Shown here piece by piece: positions 8,014-46,903 of a stretch of DNA of 51,902 nucleotides. The stretch is taken from positions 1 through 51,902 of IMG/VR virus record IMGVR_UViG_3300033388_006813; one strand, 5' to 3'. Position 1 is the stretch's first letter; every line of letters starts with the position of its first letter. The position numbers and the translations under genes are program-made. The notes under the pieces are model-generated. The model worked only from the letters and a program-made list of their open reading frames with translations, was not told where the DNA came from and ran no database searches. This DNA is from a virus.

Positions 8014-9927
8014 ATGGCAAAAAAGAAATTAAATGTAGGAGATCTAATAGATGATTTCACTGATGATATAAGTATTGGAACATCAGAAAAAATAATACCA
8101 GATATTATGACTTTTGTTAATGATAAGGAATGGCTTGGATTGCCAACACATCCAACAAATCCTATTACATTATTCAATATGCAAAGAATTATGTTAAAAA
8201 CTTTTTATAGAGGCTCTTTGGGGAATGAAGATTTAACCCTAACAGAAGAAGAAATAAAAATGTGTGAAGATCTTGGATTAAGTGATGATAACAGAGGAGA
8301 TGTTGTCGGAAAATATAATAGTGGAGAATTGTTCAGAGAATTAGTTCTTGTGTGGGGAAGAAGATCAGGAAAAGATTTTATAGTTTCTATTATAGCTCTT
8401 TATGAAGCTATGAAGCTTTTAGAATGTCCTGGTGGAGATCCTTATGCTATGTATGAATTGTCTTCTGCTACTCCAATAAATATATTAACAGTAGCTAATG
8501 CTAAACCACAGGCAAAAATCGCTTTTGATGAGATAAAAGAAAAATTATTATATTCGGAGTATTTTAGAGATAAATTCACAAAAGATGGAATGACATCTAG
8601 TTCCATTTATTTATTAACTCCGCAAGATAAAAAATATAATAAAGAATTTAGAGAAAAAGGTTTGCCGCAGAAAAAAGGATCTATCGGAATAGTTGTTGGT
8701 CACAGTAACTCAGACTCTCTTTTGGGAATGGGTTGTATTGTTCTAATACTTGATGAGGTTGCTTCTTATAAAACATCTGGAGGATCTTCATCTGGAGATA
8801 GAATTTACACAGCTTTGACTCCTACTGTTTCAACTTACAACAGAAAAACATATCTTAAAGATGGAGATAATAATTTTGTTTATGATGAACATGGTCAAAA
8901 AATAGTTCAAAGTAGAGTTTATGATGGAAAAATAATAAGCATTTCATCTCCTAGAGCACAAGAGGGAATATTTTATGAGATGTTTAGAGATGCTCATCAA
9001 GTATCTCAAAGATTAGCTATGAGACTTCCCACTTGGGACGTTAACACTCAGCATACTAGAGAAGCATTAAGAAAAGAAAGTCCTTTAGGCGAAACTGATT
9101 TCAATATGGAATTTGGTGCAGAATTTAGCGGTATGGGTTTGGAAAGTTTTTTCACAGAAGATTTAGTTAATAGCTGTTTTAATGGGCATAATTTCAGAGA
9201 TACAGAAATAGGTTCGGCGGGAAATGTATATTTTATTCATATAGACCCAGCATCTTCTAGTCATAATTATGCATTAGTTGTTTTGCATAAAGAATATTTT
9301 ATGGATCCTACAACAAAAAAAGCACAATTCGCAATAGTAGTAGATCATATAAAGCATTGGTCTCCAGCTAAAGGTCCTATAAATCCAGAAGAAGTTACAG
9401 CTTATATTATTAGTTTGAAACGAAGATTTCGCATTGGTCTCTTAACGTATGATAGCTGGGCTTCTCAAGAGAGTATTAGATTAATGAGAAAAGCAGGTAT
9501 ACCTAATAAAGAAACTAAATTTACTGGAGTATATAAAATAAAAATTTATAGAGAGCTTGAGAGTTTAGTTATTAGTGGAAGAATTAAAATCCCATTGGTA
9601 GACTCTGATGGCACAACATTACTTAGAAGTGAAATGCTTGAGCTTCAAAGAAAATTTACTGCTAATGGTTTTAAAATTATGCCAAAAACTGATGGAGATG
9701 GAGTTAAGAGTGATGATATAGTAGATTGTGTAGCTGGCGCAGCATATATTGCTATTGAAAAACAGGTGAGTAGATTGCCTAATGTTATGGTGGTAGAATG
9801 TGGGAATCCTGGAGGAGGTGGTCAAGTATGGAAAAGAGGGAATAATATCGTAGGAATTGGAAACGGTACTAAGGTGGCTAGAGATATTGAGAGAAGAGAG
9901 AATATGTTGTGGTATGGTCGTAGATAA
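8014..9927 (+). CDS. terL: Terminase large subunit (DNA packaging ATPase and nuclease)
   Basis: 637 residues, a usual TerL length. The N-terminal ATPase has a Walker A-type GRRSGKDF (about residues 115-122), Walker B CIVLILDE with D247 and E248, and a coupling-type segment ISSPRAQEG. The C-terminal RNase-H-like nuclease shows the acidic residues expected: HIDPASS (D411), TYDSWAS (D480) and SDDIVD (D567/D568). The protein would pump DNA into the prohead through the portal and cut concatemers. The ATG follows GAGGAAAAG. No separate small terminase is recognisable nearby. No intein interrupts it, unlike the portal and the protease. Confidence 0.95.
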   Translation: MAKKKLNVGDLIDDFTDDISIGTSEKIIPDIMTFVNDKEWLGLPTHPTNPITLFNMQRIMLKTFYRGSLGNEDLTLTEEEIKMCEDLGLSDDNRGDVVGKYNSGELFRELVLVWGRRSGKDFIVSIIALYEAMKLLECPGGDPYAMYELSSATPINILTVANAKPQAKIAFDEIKEKLLYSEYFRDKFTKDGMTSSSIYLLTPQDKKYNKEFREKGLPQKKGSIGIVVGHSNSDSLLGMGCIVLILDEVASYKTSGGSSSGDRIYTALTPTVSTYNRKTYLKDGDNNFVYDEHGQKIVQSRVYDGKIISISSPRAQEGIFYEMFRDAHQVSQRLAMRLPTWDVNTQHTREALRKESPLGETDFNMEFGAEFSGMGLESFFTEDLVNSCFNGHNFRDTEIGSAGNVYFIHIDPASSSHNYALVVLHKEYFMDPTTKKAQFAIVVDHIKHWSPAKGPINPEEVTAYIISLKRRFRIGLLTYDSWASQESIRLMRKAGIPNKETKFTGVYKIKIYRELESLVISGRIKIPLVDSDGTTLLRSEMLELQRKFTANGFKIMPKTDGDGVKSDDIVDCVAGAAYIAIEKQVSRLPNVMVVECGNPGGGGQVWKRGNNIVGIGNGTKVARDIERRENMLWYGRR

Positions 9928-27493: not shown

Positions 27494-30400
27494 ATGGCAA
27501 TACATAAAATAGCAACATTTTCATATCGATGCTCAGTAGAAGCTTTAAATAAGCCGAAAGGTTGGGAAATCTATAATCTACCTAACAAAATTAAAACAGC
27601 ATCTAAAACTTCTAATAGTGAAGACTTAGGTGGATTTGATTTAAAAGAAGCTACATCTAAACACCCAGATCATTTGTATATAAAAATCTTTGCAATTAAG
27701 AAAGATGAGCCAAATGATAATGGAGATGCATTTGATGCGACTCAATTAAAGAAAGCTGCTCCTACCTTTGTTGGAGTACCACTCTTTACTAATCACCAAA
27801 ATGATGATGTTGAAAAATCAAGAGGGGAGTGTGTCCATTCTTGGTATGATAAAGAAGAAGGTGGTATCTATATTATCGGTAGAGTAGATAAAGTAGCTTA
27901 TCCAAAATTGGCAAGAGGAATAGAAGAGGGATATATATCAGGAACTAGTATGGGGTGTTTTTTGGGGCATAATAGGGTCTTAATGGCAGATTCTAGTTAT
28001 AAGTATATATACGATATTAAAAAAGGTGATGAAGTTATAACTCATAAGGGCAGAGTGAGAAAAGTTAAAAATCTTCAAAGACATGAAGACAAAACTAATG
28101 ATTTGATTTATAAAATAAAAGTTGAAGGTTTGTCTAATGAGATTTGTGCTACAAAAGAACATCCATTTTATGTCCTACAAGAACAAACTAAATGTTATAT
28201 TACAGGACAAGATATCGGTGTTCCTAAGTCTATGAGAAATAGATATAGAAGAAGGACTAAGGGAGGAGTTTACCAACAAGAAGAATATAAAATTGCTTTA
28301 AAAAATGGTGAATTAGATCAGTTCGATTTTGAATGGAAAAAATCAGAAGACCTCAAAGAAGGAGATATGGTTTCTTTTCCCATTTCTAAAGAAATTGTTG
28401 AAGATTCCGATGCTACATCTGACAAAGCGAGGTTAATAGGTTATTTTTTAGCAGAAGGTAGTTATCTTAAATATAAGGGTAATAGAGTTGCTGTAGAATT
28501 TAATTTTTGTTTATCAAAAGAAAAAGATACTTTAGGAAAAGAAGTTATAGGTTTATTAAGAAAAGTCTTTGATGGGACATTAGAACCAAAAATACAAGAA
28601 AGACCCGATAGAGATATTCTTATGATCCGTTTATATGGTAGAGATGTCGCTCAGTGGTTCTTTAATTATTGTGGGGAATATTCTCATACAAAAACATTAA
28701 ATAAAAAATGTTTATTTTGGGATCCAGAAATTCAAAAACATATTTTAGCTGCGTGGATAAATGGAGATGGAACTTGTAGAAATATTTATGCTCAGAATGG
28801 AAAATTATATCAAAATATTAGTGGGACAACTTGTTCTGAGACCCTACATAATCAAATGAAATTTATTACATCTAGATTAGGGATATATTCGACGACTGAA
28901 TATATAAAAGAAAGAGCGATAAAAAATGGGAAAAAACCATATTGGATTTTAGTTTTTGGGTGTAAGGAATCTCAAAAATTAAACGAAGTATTAGGTATTG
29001 ATAGAATAGTAGAGGGAGAATATAGAGATTCTTGGTTTAGGCAAGCAGATGATTATATTGTAATGCCTATTAAAAAAATTGAGAAAGAATATAATACAGA
29101 ACCTGTTTACAATATAGAAGTAGAGGAAGATCATTCTTATATCGTAGAAGGTGTTGTTGTAAAAAATTGTTCTGTAGAATATAGCCTCTGTTCAGTTTGT
29201 CACAATATGGCAAATACATCAGATGAGTATTGTACTCACGTTTCTAATAGAAAAAATAGAAAATATAATGGCAGTATAAACTGTTCTTATCATCAGAGCA
29301 AAACAGATACAGATGAAAAATGCCCATTGTGTGGATGTGAGAAAGAAGAAAGTAAAAGTATAAAACATGCAGAACAGATGATTTATGAACATAATTATGG
29401 ATTGAAATTTATTGAAAATTCATTTGTTGTCAACCCAGCATGTCATGAGTGCGGGGTTACTTGTGTTCTTCATGTTCCAGAGCTTCAGAAAAAGGTTGCT
29501 GAGTTTTCTAAAGTTATAAATAGATTAGTTAAAGACGCTAGTAGCGAATTTACTAAAGAATCAGCAACTGCTAAAGCTATTGAGAAATTAGGAGGGGTTA
29601 ATGAAATTAACTCTCTTAAGAGTAGCATGAATGAGATGGAAATGGTTGTTAAAAGTATGTTGAAACAAAAAGATAATGTTTCAATGGAATATGTTTCTGA
29701 TCTAGTTAAGGCTATGGCAGATGTTCAGGGAATTTTAGATGAGCTTGTTGAGATGGGCTATGCAGCGTTGCCATCTCCACCAGTAACGGCAGGTGAAGAG
29801 ACTGAAGTGCCAGCACCATTCCCAGAACCAGTACAAACCCCTGAGCCGCAAATGGTTGCTCCAGGAGGTGGATCTAGCTCCCAAGAGGACCTTGGAGGGC
29901 TAGGAAATGTAACTCTTCCTCAGAAATCTTCAAATAAAAAAGAGGATTTTTCTAAAATAAGTGAAAATGTAAGTAATAAGGTATCGTCTTTGAAGCAAAG
30001 AGTGCATAAAATACAAGAAAAACAAAATAATAATGAAATAGGAGCAATTATGGCTACTGATAAAACCACAAAAACAGCAGCGGGAACTGAAAATCTAGAA
30101 GTGATTACGGAGAAGCAATTGGAGAAGAAACAGGAAAATCTTCACCCCAGAACAGAAACCGTTTATGAAAGTATTACTGAAAGTAAAGAACAGATTGGCG
30201 GAACAGAGCAATCTAACGATACTACTAGTGATAGTCCTCAAGTTCGACTTGGAACATATGAGACAACTACCGAAGATCAACTTAAATCAGAAAGTGCTCT
30301 GGGTAGTGCTATAACTCATTTTGTTGAATACCCAGATGTTATTACAGAAAAACAATGGGATGATTTTAGCCGAGATATTGCTGGTGATTTGCCAGAAGAT

Positions 30401-33400
30401 TATACTGAATCTATAACTCAAGCTCAAATAAGAGACCTTCTTAGTAAACATAAATTTATTGGTAATGTTGAAACTATTACTGAAGATCAACTTAGAAATA
30501 TGACTATGACTGATGGACTTAAGAGATGGGCTAGTTCAGATTATTCCGTATCTCTTATGAAAACAGCAATTAATACAATTGTTGATGCTGTTGTTAAATA
30601 TAAAAAATCTCCTAATGAGATAGTGAAGGCAGCTACTATTATTAATGACGATAGTGCTACAAAAGATAAAGCAGCTTTTTTGGCTGTTGTTAATTCTCTT
30701 CCTCAAAAGGCAGATGACAAAGAAGCGTTAACTCAAAATATAGCTTATTTCTGCAAGACAGCAGCTACTCATAATAAAATCTCAGGAATAGATGCTCTTA
30801 TATTGGCAGCTTCTGACAATGGTCAGTTTGCCATGAGAGCAGAAGATCTTTTTGATTCTATTTATCATGCTACAAATAACAAAACAGCATATAAGAAAGT
30901 ACAAGAAAAAGTTGCTAAAAGAATGGAAGATGATAGTACTAAAACTATTATGTCTAAAGCAGATGGTTTTGATAAAGCTCTTAAAATAATGGATAGACCA
31001 GAAGATGGCAAATATCAGATCAGAGCATCTGTAAGTGATGTTGATGCCCCTATTACAGATAAAGTTGCTTTCTTAGCAGGAGTTAAAAAACTCGCACAAG
31101 AAATGATTGACGATGACGGTGTAGACGCTTCTGCTATTATTAAGATAGAAGTTGGTGATGGTGGAGAACTGCTTATTGATATCCAAGAAGGAGCAGAAGA
31201 AACTGTTTGTCCTGATGATATAGGAGATATTATTGAAGGACCAGTTGAAGATATCGAAGCTGATAATAACGGTGAAGAAACAAATGATATGAAACCTATG
31301 GAAGGTGGAGATCAAGCAGGAATGGGAATGGGTCAAGGACAAGATCAGAATAGACCTTCAATGAACCCTATAGCAGCAGCAAAGTCTGAGATTAAACAAG
31401 CTCAAATGATGGGTGGAGAAATGGGTGGTCAAGGTGGAGCAGCACAAGCACCTGGAGCAGGAGCAGCATTACCAGGATCGCCTGGAGCAGAAGTTCCTCC
31501 AATGGAGAATTTCACAGAAGATCCAATGGCGGATGAAGAGGGTGGCTTCGATGAAGAAAATCTTGAGGCAAAACCTCCAGGATCTATTTGCCCAGTTTGT
31601 GGAAGTGATGATGTTGATATCATTTCTGGAAAAGGAAAATGTAATAACTGTGGTTCAGAAATGACATATAAAGTTGAAGTTAATGTTACTAAGTGGGAAG
31701 GTGTAACTCCTACTGGTGATGAGGCTGAAGAGCTTGGTGGACTTGGAGAGGGAGAAGGTTTTGAAATGCCTACTGAAGAGCCAGAGCTTGGAGCAGAAGA
31801 GCCAGGTATGGGTGGAGGAATGGCAGGAGAAGCTGGAATGCCAGCTATGGCTGCTTATACTCGTTTACTTCCAGAAGCACTTAAGAAAATTGGAAGTCAA
31901 AATATTATACTTGGATCAGTCAGTCCAATAACTGGAACTATAAATACTCTTAAAATGGATGATGAGCAGTATGTATGTTTAGACACTGGTACAAAATATA
32001 AAGTTTCTTGCATTGTTTCTAAAGATGGCAACAAGGCCTATGCACAGTGGGAATGGAAACCAAAAGTCGCTGGAGTAGAATGCCCATCTTGTTCGAGAGC
32101 AAAACAAAGATTTATTAAAGCTCTTTCTTCTGTAGAACTTACAGAAGCTAAATTTAATGAGTTAGAGCTTAAAGATAAAGTTGATATTATTGTAAAAATG
32201 AATAAGTCTGGAGCACTGATGAAAGTTGCTGCTAAAGAAGGTTCAGTAGTAGAAGATTATAAACTTGCTTATGGCAACTATGGAGATAAATTCCCAGTCG
32301 AATCTTGTATTGAGAAATTAGCACGTAGATTTGGAAAAGATGCTATCTGTTTGAGCGGACCAGATGAAGGTGAAAATCTTGCTGAGTCTGTATGTAATAG
32401 ACTTAAAAAGGCTGATGTTTATACTACTAAATTAGCAACAAAAGTTGCTTCGATTTGGTCAGATTGTGATGGAGATGAAGAGTGTATTACAGATCAAGTT
32501 AGAAATGGTTATTCATTAAGAGAATCAGCAGTAATTTGTACAACATTGAAATCTGCCATGGTTCAATCTGATTATATTTTTGCAGATCAACTTAGTGTTA
32601 CATCACAGATTATTGATGAAGAGCAAGATTCTATGGGAGAACCTGTTGATGATATAGGAATGGGAGAAGAAGAAGATCCATTCGAAAATATTGATGAAGG
32701 CATTGATGGTGGTACTGTAACAATCGAGCTTCCATCAGATGTTGCTGAACAACTTGGTTCTGCAGTGGATGAAGCAACGGGTGGAATCGGAGAAGAAGGA
32801 ATAGATGAAGGCGGAATAGGTGATGAAGGCGGAATAGGTGATGAAGGCGGAATAAGTGATGAAGCTCCAATAGAAGAAGTTGCGCCAGGTGATTTAGATG
32901 GTGGAGATATGAATTCTATGGAAGGTGGAGAAGTGCCTGTGGAAGGCGAAGAAGCCCCTATAGAAGAAGGTAAAGATATGACAATGTTTGATAGCGAAAC
33001 ACCAGAAGGCATGGGCGGTATTGGAGAGCCTTGTGATGATTCTTATGGCGGGGGCGGATCTGTTAAGATTACAGTTAATGGAGAACCAACAGGTGGCGGA
33101 TCAGCTTTTGCAGAAAAAAAAGAGGATTTTGAAAAAGAAGCTGGAAATGTAAATGATAATGATGGTATGGATTATAAGGAAGCCTTAATTATGAGTGGAG
33201 CAATTGGACAAGTTGGAAAGCCTCAAATGGATCTTTCTTCTGTTATCGCAGCTATTAATAAAACTGCGGGAGAAAAAGAAATTTCACAAGAGAAAGCACA
33301 AGACAGTCCCGATATAGGAACTTATACAGCTGGTGAAGGTGGAAGTGAAATGGGTCATGAAAGTGAAACCATTAGAACTCCACAAAAACCAAGTGTACCA

Positions 33401-34279
33401 AGAGACAATGCTACAATGGGTCAAGAACCAAGTGATCTTAATCCACAAGATAAACCTCTTCCAGTTGTTCCTTCTGATGATGCTACAATGGGTCATGAGA
33501 AAGAAGTTGGATTGGGTGGTGGAGATAATAGATTTACTGGTGGAACCGATGGACAAGGTAAAACAGAGTTGGCTTCAACAGATGATGATCTTTATCATAT
33601 GAAGGGTTTTGGAACCTCTAAAGACAGTTTATCTGCTCTTGCAGATAGAATTGCTAAAAAAATGGAACCAAAGAAGCCTGTAGCGGATGATCCAGATATT
33701 CAGCCAATTGATGCTGGAGATGGAAGCACAATAGGAAAAGAAGATAAGTTCACTGCTGACGAACCTAATAGTGTAGAAGGCGGAGCAACTGAGTCACTTA
33801 TCGGACATGAAAGTGAGACAGTTGGTTCAGCTCCAAAAGAGCCAGCAGATCAACCAGAAGTGTTCACAGGTAATGCCCAAATGGGTAAAGAAGAATTAGA
33901 TTCAGAAAAAACAACAAAAGATAAAGGTACAGTAATCGCAAATAGCGATTCTGAGTCCGAAGCTTATAGGGTAGCTGGAAAAATGATAGCAGCTAATAAA
34001 ATAGATGCATCAGAGCTACAGAGTAAAGTTAATGAACTCAAAACTTATAAGCCTGCTCAAATAAGAGATTTTGAAAAAGCGATTTTCGCTGGTCAAAAAG
34101 GACTTGACACTGTTTCAGACGGTATATCTCAAGCCGTGCAAATAAATGAGAATAGTAGCATGAGAAATGCTAATGAAGAGTTGTCAGATAAGTTGCAAGG
34201 ATTATTTACTCTTGAAAAACAGAATAAAATAGCAAGTGATGATACTACAACTCAATTAAGAAAAGTTTTTAGTAAATAA
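27494..34279 (+). CDS. Prohead protease fused to very long scaffold-like region, with intein
   Basis: 2261 residues, 1857 after intein removal (155-558). The N-terminal part resembles phage prohead proteases of the herpes-protease fold: VGVPLFTNHQND (candidate catalytic His), GGIYIIGRVDKVAYPKLA, GYISGTSMG then, after the intein, CSVEYSLCSVCHN (candidate Ser in GTS). A Cys-rich segment and a helical region follow. Next are five or six degenerate ITEKQL-type repeats (residues about 870-1000), a four-Cys zinc ribbon (CPVCG, CNNCG), and long Gly/Glu/Met-rich acidic linkers. MGHE or MGKE tags occur near the end. Such length suggests protease plus scaffold, as in phages where the two are encoded together. 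An internal ATG at 30050 with AGGAG may give the scaffold alone. Confidence 0.8.
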   Translation: MAIHKIATFSYRCSVEALNKPKGWEIYNLPNKIKTASKTSNSEDLGGFDLKEATSKHPDHLYIKIFAIKKDEPNDNGDAFDATQLKKAAPTFVGVPLFTNHQNDDVEKSRGECVHSWYDKEEGGIYIIGRVDKVAYPKLARGIEEGYISGTSMGCFLGHNRVLMADSSYKYIYDIKKGDEVITHKGRVRKVKNLQRHEDKTNDLIYKIKVEGLSNEICATKEHPFYVLQEQTKCYITGQDIGVPKSMRNRYRRRTKGGVYQQEEYKIALKNGELDQFDFEWKKSEDLKEGDMVSFPISKEIVEDSDATSDKARLIGYFLAEGSYLKYKGNRVAVEFNFCLSKEKDTLGKEVIGLLRKVFDGTLEPKIQERPDRDILMIRLYGRDVAQWFFNYCGEYSHTKTLNKKCLFWDPEIQKHILAAWINGDGTCRNIYAQNGKLYQNISGTTCSETLHNQMKFITSRLGIYSTTEYIKERAIKNGKKPYWILVFGCKESQKLNEVLGIDRIVEGEYRDSWFRQADDYIVMPIKKIEKEYNTEPVYNIEVEEDHSYIVEGVVVKNCSVEYSLCSVCHNMANTSDEYCTHVSNRKNRKYNGSINCSYHQSKTDTDEKCPLCGCEKEESKSIKHAEQMIYEHNYGLKFIENSFVVNPACHECGVTCVLHVPELQKKVAEFSKVINRLVKDASSEFTKESATAKAIEKLGGVNEINSLKSSMNEMEMVVKSMLKQKDNVSMEYVSDLVKAMADVQGILDELVEMGYAALPSPPVTAGEETEVPAPFPEPVQTPEPQMVAPGGGSSSQEDLGGLGNVTLPQKSSNKKEDFSKISENVSNKVSSLKQRVHKIQEKQNNNEIGAIMATDKTTKTAAGTENLEVITEKQLEKKQENLHPRTETVYESITESKEQIGGTEQSNDTTSDSPQVRLGTYETTTEDQLKSESALGSAITHFVEYPDVITEKQWDDFSRDIAGDLPEDYTESITQAQIRDLLSKHKFIGNVETITEDQLRNMTMTDGLKRWASSDYSVSLMKTAINTIVDAVVKYKKSPNEIVKAATIINDDSATKDKAAFLAVVNSLPQKADDKEALTQNIAYFCKTAATHNKISGIDALILAASDNGQFAMRAEDLFDSIYHATNNKTAYKKVQEKVAKRMEDDSTKTIMSKADGFDKALKIMDRPEDGKYQIRASVSDVDAPITDKVAFLAGVKKLAQEMIDDDGVDASAIIKIEVGDGGELLIDIQEGAEETVCPDDIGDIIEGPVEDIEADNNGEETNDMKPMEGGDQAGMGMGQGQDQNRPSMNPIAAAKSEIKQAQMMGGEMGGQGGAAQAPGAGAALPGSPGAEVPPMENFTEDPMADEEGGFDEENLEAKPPGSICPVCGSDDVDIISGKGKCNNCGSEMTYKVEVNVTKWEGVTPTGDEAEELGGLGEGEGFEMPTEEPELGAEEPGMGGGMAGEAGMPAMAAYTRLLPEALKKIGSQNIILGSVSPITGTINTLKMDDEQYVCLDTGTKYKVSCIVSKDGNKAYAQWEWKPKVAGVECPSCSRAKQRFIKALSSVELTEAKFNELELKDKVDIIVKMNKSGALMKVAAKEGSVVEDYKLAYGNYGDKFPVESCIEKLARRFGKDAICLSGPDEGENLAESVCNRLKKADVYTTKLATKVASIWSDCDGDEECITDQVRNGYSLRESAVICTTLKSAMVQSDYIFADQLSVTSQIIDEEQDSMGEPVDDIGMGEEEDPFENIDEGIDGGTVTIELPSDVAEQLGSAVDEATGGIGEEGIDEGGIGDEGGIGDEGGISDEAPIEEVAPGDLDGGDMNSMEGGEVPVEGEEAPIEEGKDMTMFDSETPEGMGGIGEPCDDSYGGGGSVKITVNGEPTGGGSAFAEKKEDFEKEAGNVNDNDGMDYKEALIMSGAIGQVGKPQMDLSSVIAAINKTAGEKEISQEKAQDSPDIGTYTAGEGGSEMGHESETIRTPQKPSVPRDNATMGQEPSDLNPQDKPLPVVPSDDATMGHEKEVGLGGGDNRFTGGTDGQGKTELASTDDDLYHMKGFGTSKDSLSALADRIAKKMEPKKPVADDPDIQPIDAGDGSTIGKEDKFTADEPNSVEGGATESLIGHESETVGSAPKEPADQPEVFTGNAQMGKEELDSEKTTKDKGTVIANSDSESEAYRVAGKMIAANKIDASELQSKVNELKTYKPAQIRDFEKAIFAGQKGLDTVSDGISQAVQINENSSMRNANEELSDKLQGLFTLEKQNKIASDDTTTQLRKVFSK
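27956..29167 (+). mobile_element. Intein with LAGLIDADG endonuclease, in prohead protease
   Basis: 404 residues. It begins at Cys (CFLGHNRVLMADSS). Block B is NEICATKEHPFYVL with the T-x-x-H pattern. LAGLIDADG helices are RLIGYFLAEGSYL and ILAAWINGDGTC. The end is PVYNIEVEEDHSYIVEG then VVVKN, with Cys as first C-extein residue; Lys replaces the usual penultimate His. It is inserted immediately after GTSMG, beside the presumed catalytic Ser. Confidence 0.92.
30050..34279 (+). CDS. Nested in-frame scaffold-type product from an internal start (candidate)
   Basis: ATG 30050 lies in the reading frame of the protease gene and is preceded by AGGAG (30040-30044) at a normal distance. The product would be 1409 residues starting MATDKTTKTAAGTENLEV, exactly where the ITEKQL repeat region begins. 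Protease and scaffold sharing one frame with an internal start is the lambda C/Nu3 arrangement. The shorter product would lack the protease and the intein. Expression is inferred from the ribosome site and domain boundary only. Confidence 0.5.
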   Translation: MATDKTTKTAAGTENLEVITEKQLEKKQENLHPRTETVYESITESKEQIGGTEQSNDTTSDSPQVRLGTYETTTEDQLKSESALGSAITHFVEYPDVITEKQWDDFSRDIAGDLPEDYTESITQAQIRDLLSKHKFIGNVETITEDQLRNMTMTDGLKRWASSDYSVSLMKTAINTIVDAVVKYKKSPNEIVKAATIINDDSATKDKAAFLAVVNSLPQKADDKEALTQNIAYFCKTAATHNKISGIDALILAASDNGQFAMRAEDLFDSIYHATNNKTAYKKVQEKVAKRMEDDSTKTIMSKADGFDKALKIMDRPEDGKYQIRASVSDVDAPITDKVAFLAGVKKLAQEMIDDDGVDASAIIKIEVGDGGELLIDIQEGAEETVCPDDIGDIIEGPVEDIEADNNGEETNDMKPMEGGDQAGMGMGQGQDQNRPSMNPIAAAKSEIKQAQMMGGEMGGQGGAAQAPGAGAALPGSPGAEVPPMENFTEDPMADEEGGFDEENLEAKPPGSICPVCGSDDVDIISGKGKCNNCGSEMTYKVEVNVTKWEGVTPTGDEAEELGGLGEGEGFEMPTEEPELGAEEPGMGGGMAGEAGMPAMAAYTRLLPEALKKIGSQNIILGSVSPITGTINTLKMDDEQYVCLDTGTKYKVSCIVSKDGNKAYAQWEWKPKVAGVECPSCSRAKQRFIKALSSVELTEAKFNELELKDKVDIIVKMNKSGALMKVAAKEGSVVEDYKLAYGNYGDKFPVESCIEKLARRFGKDAICLSGPDEGENLAESVCNRLKKADVYTTKLATKVASIWSDCDGDEECITDQVRNGYSLRESAVICTTLKSAMVQSDYIFADQLSVTSQIIDEEQDSMGEPVDDIGMGEEEDPFENIDEGIDGGTVTIELPSDVAEQLGSAVDEATGGIGEEGIDEGGIGDEGGIGDEGGISDEAPIEEVAPGDLDGGDMNSMEGGEVPVEGEEAPIEEGKDMTMFDSETPEGMGGIGEPCDDSYGGGGSVKITVNGEPTGGGSAFAEKKEDFEKEAGNVNDNDGMDYKEALIMSGAIGQVGKPQMDLSSVIAAINKTAGEKEISQEKAQDSPDIGTYTAGEGGSEMGHESETIRTPQKPSVPRDNATMGQEPSDLNPQDKPLPVVPSDDATMGHEKEVGLGGGDNRFTGGTDGQGKTELASTDDDLYHMKGFGTSKDSLSALADRIAKKMEPKKPVADDPDIQPIDAGDGSTIGKEDKFTADEPNSVEGGATESLIGHESETVGSAPKEPADQPEVFTGNAQMGKEELDSEKTTKDKGTVIANSDSESEAYRVAGKMIAANKIDASELQSKVNELKTYKPAQIRDFEKAIFAGQKGLDTVSDGISQAVQINENSSMRNANEELSDKLQGLFTLEKQNKIASDDTTTQLRKVFSK

Positions 34280-34920: not shown

Positions 34921-35793
34921 ATGGCTCTTAATAAAACAGGTCTTTCAGATCAAGATAAAGAAATGATAATCGCGCAAGCTCTTGAAACAGACGAAGGTCG
35001 TACTGCCCTTGCTCAGGCAATGGTAGAGCCAATTCGTAGGTCACTTGAGTATCAGGCAGTAGGAAGAAAGCTTCTCATGGTTGATGAGTTACCTCAAGGT
35101 GCTCTTGCTCGTTACGAGAGAGATGTTGCAGCAATTGCTTGGATCATTTCTCGTCGTGGCGCTGTACCTGATCAAATTCAGGAAGGGGAGGAAGTGTTGG
35201 TTCCTACTTTTGAAATCGCAGCAAATCCAACAGTACGTCTTAGTGAGATCAAGGCTCGTAGATTCTACATTGTAGACAGAGCACAGATCAAAGCTAAAGA
35301 AGCTATCCAGAAAGAGGAAGATAGTAATATTTTTAATGCTCTTTTGACAGCTTGTCAATCAGCACAAACAATTACTAACTATGGAACTCTTACAGTCCAG
35401 GCTCTTAATGAAGCATTTAAGCAGATTGAGCAACATGATCTAGTTACAGCTAAGATCGTTACTCATGCTTTCCAGTATGCTAGCATTAGAACTTTTGGTA
35501 AGGATTTCTTCGATGAGGCAACTCAGAGAGAAATCATCACAACTGGTCTTTATGGTCATCTTTGGACAGCTGACATACATGTTAGCTCAAGAATGACCAG
35601 CACTGTAGTCCTTCTTGTTTCTTCGCCTGAGACAGTGGGTGCTTTCCCAATCAGACAGGACATAACAGTTCTTCCAGCTGATGATCCTAAGAAACTTAGA
35701 TTAGGATGGGTAATATATGAAGAGGTAGGAATTGTCGTTATTAACGATTATGCTATCTCTCGTATTAATATGGAAGATGCTAACGCCTCTTAA
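34921..35793 (+). CDS. Major capsid protein (HK97-fold-like)
   Basis: 290 residues. Segments typical of phage major capsid proteins include VEPIRRSLEYQAVGRKLL, DVAAIAWIISRRGAVPDQ, EGEEVLVPTFEIAANPTV, IDRAQIK-like VDRAQIKAKEAIQ, and a C-terminal beta domain with RLGWVIYEEVGIVVINDYAI. The place after protease and decoration gene and before a terminator supports this call. Codon choice differs from its neighbours (more CTT, CGT, GCT and ATC), as expected for the most expressed gene. AAGGAG with 8-nt spacing is the ribosome site. No long N-terminal propeptide is evident. Confidence 0.85.
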   Translation: MALNKTGLSDQDKEMIIAQALETDEGRTALAQAMVEPIRRSLEYQAVGRKLLMVDELPQGALARYERDVAAIAWIISRRGAVPDQIQEGEEVLVPTFEIAANPTVRLSEIKARRFYIVDRAQIKAKEAIQKEEDSNIFNALLTACQSAQTITNYGTLTVQALNEAFKQIEQHDLVTAKIVTHAFQYASIRTFGKDFFDEATQREIITTGLYGHLWTADIHVSSRMTSTVVLLVSSPETVGAFPIRQDITVLPADDPKKLRLGWVIYEEVGIVVINDYAISRINMEDANAS

Positions 35794-38645: not shown

Positions 38646-39311
38646 ATGAAGTCAGAAGAAATTATTAAGTTATTAGGTAGTAGGGTTCATTATTCTATTT
38701 CGATGGAAATATCAGGTCCATTTGCAATGTTTGCTAGACCTGATACTGGGAGCGAGAAGACGAGTTATCCTTTCCCAACTTTTTCAGCAGCAAAAGGTAT
38801 ATTTGAATCTATATTATATATGCCTAATGCTATTGTTGTTCCTGTAAAAGTTCAAATTTGTAATCCAATAAGATATCAGTCTTATGCATTTAATTATAGA
38901 GGGGAACTTCGTAAATCAGAATTAATTAAGAAAAATAATACTTGTCAAATAAAAAGTACAATTCTTGTAAATCCTTGTTATAGGCTTTTTGCAAAAGTAA
39001 TAAAGGCGGATGAGATTGTTTCAACCCCTAAAAGATATAAAGGTATTAATCATGCCCATGCATATCAGGCACAATTCAATCGTCGTCTAAAAAATAGTAG
39101 AAATTATAGAACACCATGTTTAGGTTTGTCTGAATTTTTAGCTTCTTATGTCGGCATATTCAGAGAAGATACAAAAGTTCAAGAGCATATTAATTTTATT
39201 ATAGCCTCAATGACACTATGTTGTTTTGATTCTCTTAACAGAGGTGAGTACAATCCCTCATCAGTTCAAAATGTGAAAATCGAAAATGGAGAATTATGTT
39301 ATGTTAAATGA
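38646..39311 (+). CDS. cas5: Cas5, type I-C-like (Cas5d)
   Basis: 221 residues. GPFAMFARPDTGSEKTSY, then FPTFSAAKGIFESILY, then ICNPIRYQSYAFNYRG match the order of Cas5d motifs; later QFNRRLKNSRNYRTPCLGLSEF matches the Cas5d pattern of FxRRL, PYLG and EF. Cas5d binds the crRNA 5' handle and, in type I-C, cuts the precursor RNA in place of Cas6. The conserved Tyr after Glu-x-x-Ser is present (Y41). The Lys-His pair I recall before FxRR appears as Ala-Tyr, with two His just upstream (INHAHAYQ), so the catalytic set may differ. The next gene starts inside its 3' end. No cas6 is in the window. Confidence 0.85.
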   Translation: MKSEEIIKLLGSRVHYSISMEISGPFAMFARPDTGSEKTSYPFPTFSAAKGIFESILYMPNAIVVPVKVQICNPIRYQSYAFNYRGELRKSELIKKNNTCQIKSTILVNPCYRLFAKVIKADEIVSTPKRYKGINHAHAYQAQFNRRLKNSRNYRTPCLGLSEFLASYVGIFREDTKVQEHINFIIASMTLCCFDSLNRGEYNPSSVQNVKIENGELCYVK

Positions 39312-41244
39312 AATGAAATTAATTGCAGATAAAATGGAAGAATTAGGCATAGGTGAGGTTCAGATGCATTCTATGATATCGCCTAGTCCAAGATCACCAA
39401 AGACTCCTAAGTTTAAAGTGTGTATTGGTGCTGATGGAAATATTAGTTCGGTAAATCTCGTTGCCCCAGAAGTTTGGAATACTTATTCATATATCTACAA
39501 GGATGCACATAATCAGTACCCAATTATTAAAATAAAAAATATTTTAGGTGATGATGGTACAATAAAAGAAAAGGATGTTGTAAAATTTATTGGCAAATTT
39601 AATAGAATGGATACAATGTTGCAAGAATTGTTAACTAGAGATAGTGAAACTGAATCACTTTTTTTGCTTTCAGAGAGAATTAATGAAGTAGAAAATCATG
39701 AAAAATTCTTAAAAGAAATTATAGAGAAATCATTAGAGATTCTACCAGATGAGTCAGAAGATAGTAAAAAATTTACCAAGAAGGATGCTCTTAATGAAAT
39801 GTATATCACTTTAGAGATTACAGAATACAGTGATCTTAATATACATCCTGTGAATAGTACTGAAATTATAACAATTATTAGTGATGCTTTGAATCAAATA
39901 GAAGAAGATGTAGTATCTGAGAGTGGCTCAGGAGATAAAACGGATATTTTTGGTAATAGTTTTTCAGAATCTACATCTCTTCCGCAGTTAAGTTTAGACA
40001 GAACTAAATTTTACTCGTATAGTAGGAATCCATTTTCTAAGTGTTATAGAAGTTACAATGTTGCTGGGAATGATGCCTGTCCAATTTCTCCAGCTTCAAA
40101 AGCATTTATTTTTGGAAAGATGCAATATCTAACTAAAGGTAAGAATAAGGGGTTATATTGGGATTCACATTCTAATAAGGATGGTACTAGAACAGCAACA
40201 ATTGTTTTTGCTCCTATAAAAGAAACAATTTTATCTGATTTGCAGGAGTTGTTAGAGATTGGTGGAACTCAAGAAAGGGTTAACAAAGAAATTGATGAAA
40301 AGGTTAAGGAGAAATCTTCTGGCATCATATCTAATATTAGAGGTAGTAGTGCTTATGCTAATAATGAAAAAGTTCATATTCTAATTTTTAGAGTGCCATC
40401 AAATGGACCTTCGAGCTTGGTTTTATCAGATATGATCAATATTAAAGATTTGGTAACTTTTTCTAAACGATGGATAGAGGGATGGGATAATTATGATGAT
40501 GGTGAATATACTGGCATCTATGTTAAAAAAGGTGTTAAGAAAAATTTGTATTCAAAGATAAGCATTGAAAGTATGCGTAGAATTACCAACAAAAGATGGA
40601 ATAGAAGTGCATCTTGTGATGCTGGTAAAGAATTGGTTCGTGATTTTATCAATACAGAAAATATAGTGAGAATGTTTATGGGTGATAAGAATGAAACTAA
40701 AAAAATTGCTCATGTTTTCGGGAAATATCAAATAAATTTATTGATTGATATAACAAATAGAATTATGAATAGGAAGTTGTATAATTTAAAGAGTTCTCGT
40801 TTAGATATCTTTGGTTTACCCGTAGCATTTGGAGAAGTTCTGTATCAACTTGGTATTTATAAGGAAGATTATGAAAAAAATGTTCCTTATATGGTTGGTC
40901 AAATGTTGGCATGTATTAGCAAAGTACAGAGAAGTGTTTTAAAATCTGAAGGAAGAGATGACAAAAATATGCCTACTGAGCTTACAGGTACAAAACATAT
41001 TTATTTAGCCTTATCTAATCCTGAGAGAGCTATGAATTTGGCTCTTACTAATGCTAGAATATATTTAGCAAAAGCAAAAGCGAAGAGAGTGGCTGAATAT
41101 CGTCTTTCTGGAAAATCTAAGAGTCATTATCATTATTATTTATTTGCACAAGCATCTAGAGTTATTTTAGATAATGAGTTTTCTGATTATTGGAGTGATA
41201 CCGATAGGATGTTAATTGCATTAGGATATTTTCAAAATAAGTAA
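39301..41244 (+). CDS. cas8: Cas8, divergent type I-C-like large subunit (Csd1-like)
   Basis: 647 residues from ATG 39301, which has GGAG 9 nt before it; ATG 39286 is an alternative. It overlaps cas5. FKVCIGADGNISSVNLV near the start and a Cys-containing NVAGNDACPIS segment with KAFIFGKMQYL fit the Csd1 layout. The C-terminal helical region VGQMLACISKVQRSVL (about 532-547) through LALSNPERAMNLAL to LGYFQNK corresponds to the part that makes the small subunit in type I-C. The protein would recognise the PAM and hold the Cascade complex. Similarity is pattern-level, and the family is assigned mainly from neighbours. Confidence 0.75.
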   Translation: MLNEMKLIADKMEELGIGEVQMHSMISPSPRSPKTPKFKVCIGADGNISSVNLVAPEVWNTYSYIYKDAHNQYPIIKIKNILGDDGTIKEKDVVKFIGKFNRMDTMLQELLTRDSETESLFLLSERINEVENHEKFLKEIIEKSLEILPDESEDSKKFTKKDALNEMYITLEITEYSDLNIHPVNSTEIITIISDALNQIEEDVVSESGSGDKTDIFGNSFSESTSLPQLSLDRTKFYSYSRNPFSKCYRSYNVAGNDACPISPASKAFIFGKMQYLTKGKNKGLYWDSHSNKDGTRTATIVFAPIKETILSDLQELLEIGGTQERVNKEIDEKVKEKSSGIISNIRGSSAYANNEKVHILIFRVPSNGPSSLVLSDMINIKDLVTFSKRWIEGWDNYDDGEYTGIYVKKGVKKNLYSKISIESMRRITNKRWNRSASCDAGKELVRDFINTENIVRMFMGDKNETKKIAHVFGKYQINLLIDITNRIMNRKLYNLKSSRLDIFGLPVAFGEVLYQLGIYKEDYEKNVPYMVGQMLACISKVQRSVLKSEGRDDKNMPTELTGTKHIYLALSNPERAMNLALTNARIYLAKAKAKRVAEYRLSGKSKSHYHYYLFAQASRVILDNEFSDYWSDTDRMLIALGYFQNK

Positions 41245-41273: not shown

Positions 41274-41651
41274 ATGTTTGATAAAGAATTTTGTGGAAAA
41301 ATTGGACAGTTATTAAAAAAGGCTGATAATATGCAAATGTATTATTATGAGTCACACAATAAACTTAATGATATTCCTAAAGAATTAATTGGGGGAAAGT
41401 CATTATCTATGGTATTAAATAGACCCAAAGATGGTATATTATTTTTACAAAAATTAGCAGATCCATTTGCTCGTTTTTGTGATGCCAAAAGAAAAAAACG
41501 AAGTAATGATTGGAGAATTGCTTATGGTAGAATGATGTTGTTTACAAAACTTCTTAATGACGTTCTCGAAAGAGTGGATAGTGAAGAAGATTGCTGTGTT
41601 AGCACTTCTTCTAAAAATATAATTATTTTAGAATATTTAATGGAGATTTAA
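41274..41651 (+). CDS. cas11: Stand-alone Cas11-like small subunit, duplicate of the Cas8 C-terminus
   Basis: 125 residues, helical. It aligns to the Cas8 C-terminal region just upstream: IGQLLKKADNMQ with VGQMLACISKVQ, IPKELIGGKSLS with MPTELTGTKHIY, LNRPKDGILFL with LSNPERAMNLA, then a basic DAKRKKR with KAKAKR. In type I-C the small subunit Cas11 is normally made from an internal start inside cas8. Here a separate gene with its own ribosome site (AAGAGG) follows cas8 by 29 nt and precedes cas7 by 1 nt. It would line the Cascade belly. The function is inferred from the duplication and position. Confidence 0.7.
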   Translation: MFDKEFCGKIGQLLKKADNMQMYYYESHNKLNDIPKELIGGKSLSMVLNRPKDGILFLQKLADPFARFCDAKRKKRSNDWRIAYGRMMLFTKLLNDVLERVDSEEDCCVSTSSKNIIILEYLMEI

Positions 41652-41652
41652 A

Positions 41653-42576
41653 ATGAAGAAAAGTAAAAAATTAGCCAAACGAGCATTTGGTATCGTAGCA
41701 GTTGAAGTAGTTTTGTCTAATCCTAATGGTAATCCCGATGAGGATGATATGCCTCGTCTTACCAATGATGAGTGTGGTCTTATTACACCAGTTTGTTTTA
41801 AGCATCGTACAAGGGAATTGTTGGAGGATCATGAGGGAGTTACCTGGGAATATTTGCAAGGCAAGTTGGGTCTTGACGATGATAGTTTCCATATCTGGGA
41901 ATCTGCTTGTAAAGGATACGATGTTAATTCGCCAATAGAGGCTAAAGAACATTGGTCTAAGATGGTTAAGGAAGAGGGAGAAGAATCTCTTTTGAAGCGT
42001 TTTTGGGATATGAGGGTATTTGGTACTACTGCTCTTGAAACAAAAGGCAAAGATTCTTTAAACTTTAAGAGGACAGGTTGTGTTTCTGTTTCTCCTCTTG
42101 TATCTTTACTTCCGATTGAGGTTATTAATCAGACAATCACAAAGGGGAATCCTCTTGAATCAAAGCTTATGGCTCAAGGTCAAGGGACAATAGCTCCTTT
42201 TGGATATAAGGTTGTAAGGCATGGGCTGTACATAGGTGTATATGTTATTAATCCTTCGAAAGCTCATTATACTGGTACAACTGAACAGGATATTGATGTC
42301 TTCAAGGAATTAATCAAGCATTCATTCAGTAATTCTACGGCTGCATCAAGGTCCGGAGTGAGAGTAGTTCAGATTGTACATGCTGAACATGATAATCCTC
42401 TTGGTTCATTTAATGAGTCAACATTATTTGAGTTTTGTAAACCTTCAACGGATCTTACACTTCCATCAATCTCTATGGATGATTATAACTTGAAATCTTT
42501 AGATGATATTAAGAAAGCTTTTCCAGATATTAAGGTAGAGATGTTAAGCAATACTTATTCGGAGGCATTAGTATAA
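41653..42576 (+). CDS. cas7: Cas7 (Csd2-like) Cascade backbone subunit
   Basis: 307 residues. Classic Cas7 signatures: EVVLSNPNGNPDEDDMPR (about 18-35), then GLITPVCFKHRTRELL, then RFWDMRVFGTTAL, and GYKVVRHGLYIGVYV. Cas7 polymerises along the crRNA spacer. The start follows GGAGATTTAAA. The stop TAA overlaps the cas3 ATG by one base (TAATG). The length is close to usual type I-C Cas7. Confidence 0.92.
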   Translation: MKKSKKLAKRAFGIVAVEVVLSNPNGNPDEDDMPRLTNDECGLITPVCFKHRTRELLEDHEGVTWEYLQGKLGLDDDSFHIWESACKGYDVNSPIEAKEHWSKMVKEEGEESLLKRFWDMRVFGTTALETKGKDSLNFKRTGCVSVSPLVSLLPIEVINQTITKGNPLESKLMAQGQGTIAPFGYKVVRHGLYIGVYVINPSKAHYTGTTEQDIDVFKELIKHSFSNSTAASRSGVRVVQIVHAEHDNPLGSFNESTLFEFCKPSTDLTLPSISMDDYNLKSLDDIKKAFPDIKVEMLSNTYSEALV

Positions 42577-45089
42577 TGTCAGAACATATTAATAACAACA
42601 GCGTGTCCTCTTCGGAGGACACGTTGTTTGATTATGTTGCTCATTCAGACGATCCAGAGAATGGGATTAATTTTACTCAGTCTTATTATTCACATGCTAG
42701 CGAAGTGAGAGACAGAGCTTTGCGATGTTTTGATGAAATGGTAAAATATATGTCATTGGATAGTAGCGTTATATCTGCAGCGAGGGAAGTATTAGAAATA
42801 GCAGCGGAATATCATGATCTTGGTAAATTGGATTTAGTATCTCAAGAAATTATAAAGAAGAGGCATCATAATGAGAATGGTAGTAAAATAAGTATGCTTA
42901 ATCATGTTGATGCTGGTTCTGCTTTTCTTCTTCAAAAATATAGTGAGATAAAAAAATCAGGTCTTAGTCTTGCTCTTCGGATTAATTATCTTATTGCAGC
43001 TGTATTGATTGATGCACATCATATTGGGATATTGAATAAAATTTTAAATGAGAACAGAGAAGAACGAGATGCGAAATTATATCCATCATTGGGTAGTATT
43101 GTTGCTAATATTGATATTCTCAGAAGCGATGTCAAAATGTTAAAAAAATATCCATATTATAAGCATGTTGTAGATGATAAAAACAAAACAGTAAAAGAGT
43201 ATGTAGATGAAACATTATCTGAATTATTAGAAAGACATTATAAATGTTTTGAAAACAGTAAAAAAAGTATAGAATCATTATACATTCCAATACTTGATCA
43301 TTCTATGCTTTTAAGATTTATGTTATCGTGTTTAGTAGAGGGCGATCATGGGGATACCTCTCGTCATTATGGTGGGATTGCTCCTAATGTAATAACATTT
43401 CCATTAAGAGCAGACGAAAGATTAACACATCATATGATGATGTACGATAATTTTCCTTTGGCTGAGACAGAAAAAGAAAGAGAAAAAAATAGAGTAAGAA
43501 GCCTTATACACAAAGATTGTGAAGAAGTAAGTTTGGGTCACAATTTTTATGGAATTTATGCTTTTCCAGGTTATGGAAAAAATCATTCTGGTGATTATTT
43601 AGCTTTAAGACTATGTAGAGAGCATGGTTTAAGAGGAGTTGTGAAGATGGCTCCATACAATGATATTTTAACACAAAATATAAGAGAGAGCAAAGATTTT
43701 TTAATGTTGCCTGGAGAAAAAAGTGGAGAAGTTATAGGGGAACATTACCAAGACGCTAGACATTGGGAAAGGTCTCAAAAGGAAGGTATTAATTATAAGT
43801 TGTTAAAGCATTACAGTACTTTATGGAATTGTCCTTTTGAAGTTGTATCGGTTGTCCAGTTTTTTGAGACTATGGCTAGTAATTATCCATCTAAAATAAG
43901 AAAACTTCATCAACTTACTGGTAGAGTTATTATTATTGATGAGTTTCATATTGCTGTTCCTATAAAAATGTTACGTCAAACTTTGAGGTGGTTGAAATAT
44001 TTGGTAGATAACTGTGGATGTAAAGTTATTCTTATGTCTGGATCTTCTGTAAAATTTTGGGAAATAGAGCAACTAAAATCATGCGAAATTGAAGTAAAAG
44101 AAGTTTTATCTTGTGAGTCTAATCATGTTATGAACGAGTTAGAGGTTGGTAGGGTTAGTTATTCAAGAATAGAGGAACAGTTTAATAGTTTTCAACAATT
44201 AGCAGAAGTAGTAATGAGTAGACCTGGACCAAGAGTTGTAGTATTTAATACTGTTTTATCGGCAGCTATTTTTGCTAATTATATAAGGTTACAATATGGA
44301 AGAGAAAAAGTAGAACATATATCTACCGCTCTTACACCGAAAAATAGAAAGACAAAATATAAAGTTATTAAAAATAGACTTAAAGATAGAACTGATGATG
44401 ACTGGGTTTTAGTATCTACATCATGTATTGAAACTGGAGTTAATTTTTCATTCAGAACTGGTTTTAGAGAAAATAATTGTCATTTAAGTTTATTGCAACT
44501 TGGTGGTCGAGTGAATCGTGGAAATGAATACATTGAATGTTGCGATGTGTTTGTATTTAATATGGATCATGAAGCAATGGGCACTACTAATAATCCTGCA
44601 TTTAATGCTTCTATTAAAGTACATAATGATCTTTTCGATGTTGATCGTATTGGGTACGGATATTGTACTGAATCTATTAGAAGAGAGATAGTAGAACGTA
44701 ATAAAGATCTAGAGTATTTTACAGAGATAGAATTTGAAGAAGAACAACTTTGTTTTGGCTCAGTCGCTGATTTATATAAAATTATTCCTCGTTCATATAA
44801 ATCAATTGTAGTTGATCCAGAAGTGATAGCTAAGATTGACAATGAAGATATAGTTAGATATCGTGAGTTGACAGAGAATAGTATTCAGATGTTTTTTACT
44901 AAGTTAGATAGAGCTGATTACCAGGATAATATTGATTTTGTGAATGAAGATAGAATTCCTAATGATAAGTATAAAGAAGCAAAAATAAAGGCTCCTAAAG
45001 AATTTAATGTTTGGACAGGAGAATATGATCCTGATTTCTTAGGATATATGAAAGAAATATTAATCAGAATGGGGCATAGTGTCGAGTAA
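42576..45089 (+). CDS. cas3: Cas3 HD nuclease-helicase
   Basis: 837 residues. The HD nuclease has AAEYHDLGKLD (H80, D81), a following HVDAGSAF, then DAHHIG and GDHGDTSRH. The helicase has Walker B DEFH (455-458), motif III LMSGSS in place of the usual SAT, motif V VSTSCIETGVNFS and motif VI LGGRVNRGNE. Walker A is unusual: FPGYGKNHSG, with Asn after K335 where Thr or Ser is expected. Cas3 is recruited to Cascade-bound DNA and degrades it. The gene is the last of the operon and is coupled to cas7. Confidence 0.9.
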   Translation: MSEHINNNSVSSSEDTLFDYVAHSDDPENGINFTQSYYSHASEVRDRALRCFDEMVKYMSLDSSVISAAREVLEIAAEYHDLGKLDLVSQEIIKKRHHNENGSKISMLNHVDAGSAFLLQKYSEIKKSGLSLALRINYLIAAVLIDAHHIGILNKILNENREERDAKLYPSLGSIVANIDILRSDVKMLKKYPYYKHVVDDKNKTVKEYVDETLSELLERHYKCFENSKKSIESLYIPILDHSMLLRFMLSCLVEGDHGDTSRHYGGIAPNVITFPLRADERLTHHMMMYDNFPLAETEKEREKNRVRSLIHKDCEEVSLGHNFYGIYAFPGYGKNHSGDYLALRLCREHGLRGVVKMAPYNDILTQNIRESKDFLMLPGEKSGEVIGEHYQDARHWERSQKEGINYKLLKHYSTLWNCPFEVVSVVQFFETMASNYPSKIRKLHQLTGRVIIIDEFHIAVPIKMLRQTLRWLKYLVDNCGCKVILMSGSSVKFWEIEQLKSCEIEVKEVLSCESNHVMNELEVGRVSYSRIEEQFNSFQQLAEVVMSRPGPRVVVFNTVLSAAIFANYIRLQYGREKVEHISTALTPKNRKTKYKVIKNRLKDRTDDDWVLVSTSCIETGVNFSFRTGFRENNCHLSLLQLGGRVNRGNEYIECCDVFVFNMDHEAMGTTNNPAFNASIKVHNDLFDVDRIGYGYCTESIRREIVERNKDLEYFTEIEFEEEQLCFGSVADLYKIIPRSYKSIVVDPEVIAKIDNEDIVRYRELTENSIQMFFTKLDRADYQDNIDFVNEDRIPNDKYKEAKIKAPKEFNVWTGEYDPDFLGYMKEILIRMGHSVE

Positions 45090-45219: not shown

Positions 45220-46903
45220 GATGTCTCTCATAGTAATATGAGAGTGGATTACAACGAACTCTTTCCAGGTCATGTTATATTCTATTGATGTCTCTCATAG
45301 TAATATGAGAGTGGATTACAACCATAGTTTGTTCCTGCTGTTCTTATACTTTGATGTCTCTCATAGTAATATGAGAGTGGATTACAACCCTGCTCGCCTT
45401 TTTCACCTTTGTCACCTTGATGTCTCTCATAGTAATATGAGAGTGGATTACAACAAGGAGAACTGGCTATGTGTCAAAATATTTGATGTCTCTCATAGTA
45501 ATATGAGAGTGGATTACAACGGACAGCAGGACAGATACTTTACTATAAACGATGTCTCTCATAGTAATATGAGAGTGGATTACAACAGATATTAGGGGAT
45601 GGAATATATAGCTTTAGATGTCTCTCATAGTAATATGAGAGTGGATTACAACTAACATTATTACGTCAAGATTTATTTCAATGATGTCTCTCATAGTAAT
45701 ATGAGAGTGGATTACAACATAGGAAGTTTGTGGTTCCTCACCCATCGAGATGTCTCTCATAGTAATATGAGAGTGGATTACAACACAAGTCATTATCTGT
45801 CTCTCTCTTGTTTTGATGTCTCTCATAGTAATATGAGAGTGGATTACAACTTGTCTATCCTTATAAGGTCATCACACGATGATGTCTCTCATAGTAATAT
45901 GAGAGTGGATTACAACTGCAAAGATCAGGGCAAGATGTTGATGAAGATGTCTCTCATAGTAATATGAGAGTGGATTACAACTTGGTAGATACAGTCGATT
46001 TATGAAACAAGATGTCTCTCATAGTAATATGAGAGTGGATTACAACACAACTCTTCGCTGATATTCACTCAAGCCGGATGTCTCTCATAGTAATATGAGA
46101 GTGGATTACAACTACCCTAGATCTTCCACTAAACAGACCAGGATGTCTCTCATAGTAATATGAGAGTGGATTACAACAAAGACGTGCAGGACACTCTCGC
46201 TATATTTGATGTCTCTCATAGTAATATGAGAGTGGATTACAACTGACGACCACGAACCAAGTCTACAAGCGGAGATGTCTCTCATAGTAATATGAGAGTG
46301 GATTACAACGGGAACTGTCAAAGACCCCGACTCTGGGCAGATGTCTCTCATAGTAATATGAGAGTGGATTACAACAAAGCATTTAACATAGTGGCCATAG
46401 CAATAGATGTCTCTCATAGTAATATGAGAGTGGATTACAACCCTCACTCCCGATGCGACAAGCATCAATATTGATGTCTCTCATATAGTAATATGAGAGT
46501 GGATTACAACAGCAGTAAGACAGATAAATGGGCAACCCCTGATGTCTCTCATAGTAATATGAGAGTGGATTACAACATAATAATGAGTCTGTCCGTTACT
46601 AATGCTGATGTCTCTCATAGTAATATGAGAGTGGATTACAACAGAAGATTCCCTACACTAAAACAAAAGTATGATGTCTCTCATAGTAATATGAGAGTGG
46701 ATTACAACAACAAAATCTATTGCTGCCTGATAGGCTGATGTCTTTCATAGTAATATGAGAGTGGATTACAACCAATAATTGCCAGAGACTGCAAATCTGA
46801 TGGATGTCTCTCATAGTAATATGAGAGTGGATTACAACGTAGTTTTATGTAGTTTAGGTAATTCTGTTGATTCTCTTATAGCGATATGAGAGTGGATTAT
46901 AAT
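45220..46903 (+). CRISPR. CRISPR array: 26 repeats (36 nt), 25 spacers (28-31 nt)
   Basis: The repeat is GATGTCTCTCATAGTAATAT followed by GAGAGTGGATTACAAC. Starts: 45220, 45287, 45353, 45419, 45485, 45551, 45617, 45683, 45749, 45815, 45881, 45946, 46011, 46077, 46142, 46208, 46274, 46340, 46406, 46473, 46541, 46607, 46673, 46737, 46803, 46869. Repeat 20 (46473-46510) has a 2-nt insertion in its loop, repeat 24 has one C to T change, and repeat 26 is degenerate, marking the trailer end. Spacers are mostly 30 nt. Within each repeat CTCTCATA and TATGAGAG pair around GTAA, leaving an 11-nt 3' part (TGGATTACAAC), the type I-C handle length. The orientation is + strand, the same as the cas genes. 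Confidence 0.98.

Follow-up and report, generated by a model that had tools for sequence, protein, structure and literature searches.

A probable stand-alone cas11 gene next to a cas8 that has lost its internal start in a phage-borne type I-C CRISPR locus

An open reading frame (ORF) of 125 amino acids, here called ORF125, was found in a type I-C CRISPR locus of a phage, where it very probably encodes the Cas11c small subunit of the phage's own Cascade, translated from its own gene. The locus lies in the virus record IMGVR_UViG_3300033388_006813, which was analysed over its whole length of 51,902 bases (the window). In type I-C systems, translation of Cas11c begins at a ribosome-binding site inside cas8c, and the C-terminus of D. 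vulgaris Cas8c is structurally identical to Cas11c (PMC7684278). A preliminary description of the window had placed a separate 125-codon gene between cas8 and cas7, and the ORF (41274-41651, plus strand) is present there as described. It begins with an ATG 29 nt past the cas8 stop and ends 1 nt ahead of the cas7 ATG, and the energy of its Shine-Dalgarno (SD) sequence, AGAGG, equals that of cas7 (-6.4).

ORF125 is homologous to the C-terminal domain of Cas8c. In a single pairwise BLASTP comparison, residues 529-608 of the window Cas8 aligned with residues 2-83 of ORF125 (E 4e-4), with the segments in the order that had been claimed. The profile search suggested at that time was also run, and the PADLOC Cas8c profile PDLC01562 was observed to match both proteins; it covers most of Cas8 (E 4.5e-46) and matches ORF125 at profile positions 533-618 of 658 only (E 5e-8). 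As relatives we took 28 bacterial or archaeal loci forming one clade (L030-L057, from a Cas7 search) together with two loci from Cas7 searches, L003 on a faecal phage contig and L007 on a viral contig of 527 kb. A profile of the C-terminal (Cas11) domain, built from relatives alone without the window sequences, gave 37.0 bits on residues 10-122 of ORF125 and 43.4 bits on residues 532-650 of Cas8, so that both copies of the domain are retained, as the preliminary description had it. The best of 5,000 shuffles of ORF125 reached 10.3 bits against the domain model, where ORF125 itself had 36.8, and the sequence likeness is therefore far beyond chance. An unrelated small helical protein, for which the short length, the helical content and an identity to the relatives of 24% at best might speak, is extremely improbable in the face of this score, of the match to the independent PADLOC profile and of the fold. 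No match to ORF125 was found in Pfam or NCBIfam and therefore routine annotation could miss it. Sequence searches of the Protein Data Bank (PDB) gave nothing relevant, whether made with ORF125 and Cas8 themselves or with their profiles.

The AlphaFold model of ORF125 consists of five helices (pLDDT 92, pTM 0.85) and is predicted to be a helical bundle of the Cas11c fold. The best eight of 315 VIA-aligned PDB chains were all type I-C Cas11c chains or Cas8c C-termini (residues 495-602), with Z scores of 10.0-11.2, and the next unrelated chain was observed at Z 7.9. Residues 525-652 of the Cas8 model likewise match Cas11c chains at Z 10.1-10.8 (10.8 for chain 9jhb_B). Unrelated folds for the two regions had been named as grounds for giving up the proposed Cas11 identity; in the models both regions match type I-C Cas11c chains, and the identity is upheld by profiles and predicted fold alike. 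Sequence and fold were weighed jointly because helical bundles easily yield middling Z scores.

The internal start from which Cas11c is made was found to be highly conserved in the relatives and missing from the window cas8. Of 44 distinct relative cas8 genes, 42 have an ATG or GTG at a single fixed codon (27 of 29 in a first set, one of these being GTG and the others ATG, and 15 of 15 in a new set), and the SD energy at this codon is -5.4 or lower in 41 of the 44 (26 of 29 in the first set), ranging from -5.4 to -12.3. The codon usually belongs to a K-E-x-Y-M motif whose own codons spell the Shine-Dalgarno sequence (AAGGAGGA..TAT ATG). In the window cas8 the same place reads AAG GAA GAT TAT GAA, that is K-E-D-Y-E, and the left-over AAGGAAG precedes no in-frame start. 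When the two copies are aligned, ORF125 starts within two codons of the lost internal start. Because the start kept in 42 of 44 relatives is GAA here, the transfer of the small subunit to a separate gene looks complete for translation, and judged from sequence a completed hand-over rather than a double source is likely. The preliminary description had regarded the locus as an intermediate between internal translation and an independent Cas11; in view of the GAA codon, the locus does not appear to be one with both routes in use. Type I-C systems encrypt cas11 at the 3' end of cas8 by means of the internal start; in the window the domain is present and the start codon is not, and for this reason we class the locus as a type I-C variant and not as a plain member.

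The only in-frame starts near this place are at residues 536, 540 and 541 of Cas8. The best SD energy among them, -4.1, belongs to a TTG from which translation would cut into helix 1. Initiation without a good Shine-Dalgarno sequence does happen, and the ATG codons at 536 and 540 are just 6-10 codons past the old start. Some Cas11 might thus still be made from Met536 or Met540, with ORF125 as an addition or as a decaying duplicate. We consider this unlikely, since the SD energy is -2.8 at 540 and weaker at 536, whereas the fixed codon has -5.4 to -12.3 in 41 relatives, and a start at either residue would shorten helix 1 at its head. Furthermore, the left-over AAGGAAG now lies 3 nt ahead of an out-of-frame ATG (40871), and ORF125 is intact with a Shine-Dalgarno sequence of its own.

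A second copy of the domain was not observed in any relative. In all the relative loci, L003 and L007 included, cas8 runs into cas7 without an intervening gene. Exactly one copy per genome was found in 28 of 28 whole genomes and in 24 more genomes of three phyla, and in these 52 genomes it is always part of an open frame 671-886 residues long; no second copy was found in them, nor in L003 or L007. A six-frame scan of the collected loci found two copies in the window only, 1,182 genomes of the three phyla contained single, fused copies only, and a scan of viral contigs with the C-terminal profile revealed no other stand-alone copy. Close relatives of cas8 and cas7 in viral contigs were limited to the window's own record, and among 50 records, nearly all with a related head protein, no I-C Cas7 or Cas8 was found besides those of L007 itself. 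L007 is nearest to the window Cas8 in the tree (support 92/91), and its cas8 (L007:6206-8014) was observed to carry Glu at the ancestral codon and an ATG four codons upstream, preceded by AAAGG with a weaker SD energy (-3.2). The internal start in L007 has apparently shifted four codons upstream, which suggests that such a shift came before the hand-over to a separate gene.

Several observations weigh against a Cas11c role for ORF125. L007 also lacks an ATG at the conserved codon, yet it has no separate cas11. ORF125 is strongly diverged, keeping 13 of the 34 columns conserved in relatives (14 are kept by the Cas8 copy) and lacking the His, Trp and Gly that are almost invariant in the family, and it is the single known sequence of this arrangement. 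The alignment behind its model is made up of the Cas11 domains of relatives (28 other domain sequences), and its Z of about 11 falls inside the range where the tool warns about helical bundles, although top rows that are all of type I-C are specific nonetheless. Foldseek alone gave no significant match for ORF125 and no type I-C chains among the matches listed, and no PDB chain matches it by sequence. The strong divergence and the phage setting could also fit a decoy, a Cas11 mimic that poisons the type I-C Cascade of the host as an anti-CRISPR. Such a role is very improbable for a gene that lies between the cas8 and cas7 of a complete effector operon, 1 nt from the cas7 start, where the operon is otherwise without a good source of Cas11.

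The earlier proposal that ORF125 arose by duplication of the Cas8 C-terminus holds broadly, for a Cas8c C-terminus in general; this same cas8 is one possible source, but ORF125 and the window Cas8 C-terminus are not mutual best matches. The latter ranks 28th of 30 for ORF125 by shuffled Z, so that other relatives are closer. ORF125 is left unplaced by the tree, and the best tree puts it away from the window Cas8 without support. ORF125 may thus be a stand-alone Cas11 that came by recombination from another type I-C locus, an origin to which we give somewhat less than an even chance. In approximately unbiased (AU) tests neither the window pair (p = 0.196) nor the pair grouped with L007 (p = 0.369) was rejected. 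Both window copies also share a Gln at a column where nearly all relatives have His and no aligned relative has Gln, and the rare residues shared with ORF125 number five each for L007 and the window Cas8 and four or fewer for the others. These few shared residues, on long branches, lean weakly to a local origin. A conversion of the internally translated subunit to its own gene within the lineage of L007 and the window, where the start had already shifted, has about an even chance of being correct. By this route the 3' end of cas8 would have been duplicated and the parent start then lost, and the copies would now be specialising as Cas8 domain and free Cas11. An assembly duplicate was ruled out as the two copies are too diverged.

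In related systems, a single cas8 gives both full-length Cas8c and free Cas11c, the latter from an internal Shine-Dalgarno sequence and ATG at the head of the bundle. On the simplest reading these roles are split in the window: Cas8, which has lost the internal start codon, retains the bundle as a C-terminal domain, and ORF125 would supply the free small subunits of Cascade. Without Cas11c, type I-C Cascade reportedly does not form (PMC11899642), and therefore a system without the internal start is expected to fail unless another gene supplies Cas11. In Haloferax, a change of the internal Met codon abolishes Cas11b (PMC11899642). We infer that ORF125 is translated, assembles into Cascade and functions in interference. 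As a Cas11c small subunit it would bind the non-target strand.

Separate cas11 genes are the usual state in types I-A and I-E, as internal cas11 is in types I-B, I-C and I-D (PMC11899642). As in the known type I-C Cascade with one gene for both proteins, the window encodes a Cas5c-Cas8c-Cas7 effector, and the ORF125 model matches the small subunits of Cas8c C-terminal fold; the differences are that Cas11 has its own gene and that the internal start codon is gone. The clade matched by PDLC01562 (L030-L057) has the same Cas5, Cas8, Cas7 and Cas3 families in the same order, but with a single fused domain copy, nearly always an internal start and, in those loci with an array found, spacers of 33-36 nt, in place of the separate cas11 and 30-nt spacers of the window. 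Types I-E and I-A likewise carry the small subunit on its own gene (PMC11899642), whereas in the window it can still be seen that cas11 is related to the C-terminus of the Cas8 from its own operon. The type I-C variant of two huge phages (Al-Shayeb 2020, PMC7162821) resembles the window in its huge phage setting, its I-C-like effector and its lack of cas1 and cas2, and is set apart by its description, in which a different helicase replaces Cas3 and Cas11 is not mentioned.

No stand-alone cas11 in type I-C was found in the open-access literature searched, and neither the literature nor the genomes searched yielded the combination of a separate, recognisable cas11 with a lost internal start. A review proposes such a step from internal to separate cas11 in words (PMC10212523). 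On the available sequences the window locus would be a new variant of type I-C and an apparent natural case in which a 'gene within a gene' has turned into an ordinary gene. Cas11 proteins of different subtypes are no longer alike in sequence, while in the window the kinship between cas11 and its operon's own Cas8 can still be recognised and the old start can be read as a scar; the conversion step is therefore directly testable. In addition, separate cas11 genes have been added by hand to type I-B, I-C and I-D tools for use in other cells (PMC10212523, PMC13199841), and the arrangement in the window would be the natural version of this design.

Features of the type I-C locus and of the record that carries it
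Feature	Position	Strand	Basis
Virus record analysed	51,902 bases		window
cas5 (Cas5c, presumed crRNA processing)	38646..39311	+	PADLOC Cas5c E 6.4e-24; 35-48% identity to relatives' Cas5
cas8 (Cas8c large subunit)	39286..41244	+	PADLOC Cas8c E 4.5e-46; model vs type I-C Cas8c Z 20.9 over 520 residues
Left-over Shine-Dalgarno-like AAGGAAG at ancestral internal start	40861..40867	+	relatives: AAGGAG(G)
Lost internal start, codon 530 = GAA (Glu)	40873..40875	+	ungapped KEDYE vs relatives' KEDYM
Cas11-type domain kept inside Cas8 (residues 532-652)	40879..41241	+	43.4 bits to domain profile; model match to Cas11c
Putative stand-alone cas11 (ORF125), predicted five-helix small subunit	41274..41651	+	profiles, shuffles, fold, own SD AGAGG -6.4
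cas7 (Cas7c backbone)	41653..42576	+	PF05107 E 3.4e-37
cas3 (HD nuclease-helicase), departed Walker A	42576..45089	+	PADLOC Cas3c E 7.4e-75; motif alignment
CRISPR array	45220..46838	+	repeat length 36 nt, 25 copies (two imperfect); 24 spacers, 18 with 30 nt

The assignment to type I-C and to a phage, as first described, agrees with the Cas8c match and with the phage structural genes that share one contig with the CRISPR locus, namely a terminase (8014-9927) and a major head protein (34921-35793) matching PHROG 2522 at E 7.7e-62. The window probably represents a piece of a huge phage, because relatives of its head protein were found on contigs of up to 548 kb. The head gene is followed on its 3' side by a LAGLIDADG endonuclease, a DNA methylase and then the cas operon, an effector-only type I-C operon in the order cas5-cas8-ORF125-cas7-cas3-CRISPR. 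Neither adaptation genes nor cas6 were seen among the ORFs adjoining the operon, and Cas5, which matches the Cas5c family, is presumed to process the crRNA. Cas8 is of the Cas8c type by both profile and predicted fold, and the Cas7c backbone and Cas3 are found within the one operon. The true start of cas8 is probably the ATG at 39304 and not 39286, because it has a good Shine-Dalgarno sequence (-6.4 against 0.4) and gives an MLNE start common to relatives.

We noticed that the Walker A motif of Cas3 (window 43560-43589, residues 329-338) reads AFPGYGKNHS, where 27 aligned relatives have SPVGxGKTT or a close form (GSAKTT in one). The HD, DExH and VI motifs are retained in the same alignment. 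The helicase may be weakened, in which case the phage system might bind or nick its target and not degrade it processively. Another Cas3-like helicase-nuclease with an intact P-loop was observed on a phage contig with a related head protein (L163:12753-18616, minus strand), directly upstream of a Cas12h-like protein of 1,137 amino acids; no I-C Cas7 or Cas8 was found in that record.

Most spacers in the window are 30 nt long, where eleven related arrays were measured at 33-36 nt, and such a length would suit a Cascade shorter by about one Cas7. One repeat (46472-46510) carries an extra TA (TCTCATATAGTAATATGAGA), which lengthens the preceding unit, and a further degenerate repeat lies past the array near 46868. 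The spacers had no match in the loci collected here or in the window itself. Over 32 bases, the spacer region at 45389-45418 shares 94% identity with tail fibre genes of two Vibrio phages, BD1 and BD5 (E 4e-3), which may be a low-complexity match as the region reads like a collagen-like repeat. Elsewhere in the window, an ORF of 2,261 amino acids (27494-34279) carries an intein-like insert near residues 155-558 (Intein_splicing E 7.7e-12, LAGLIDADG_3).
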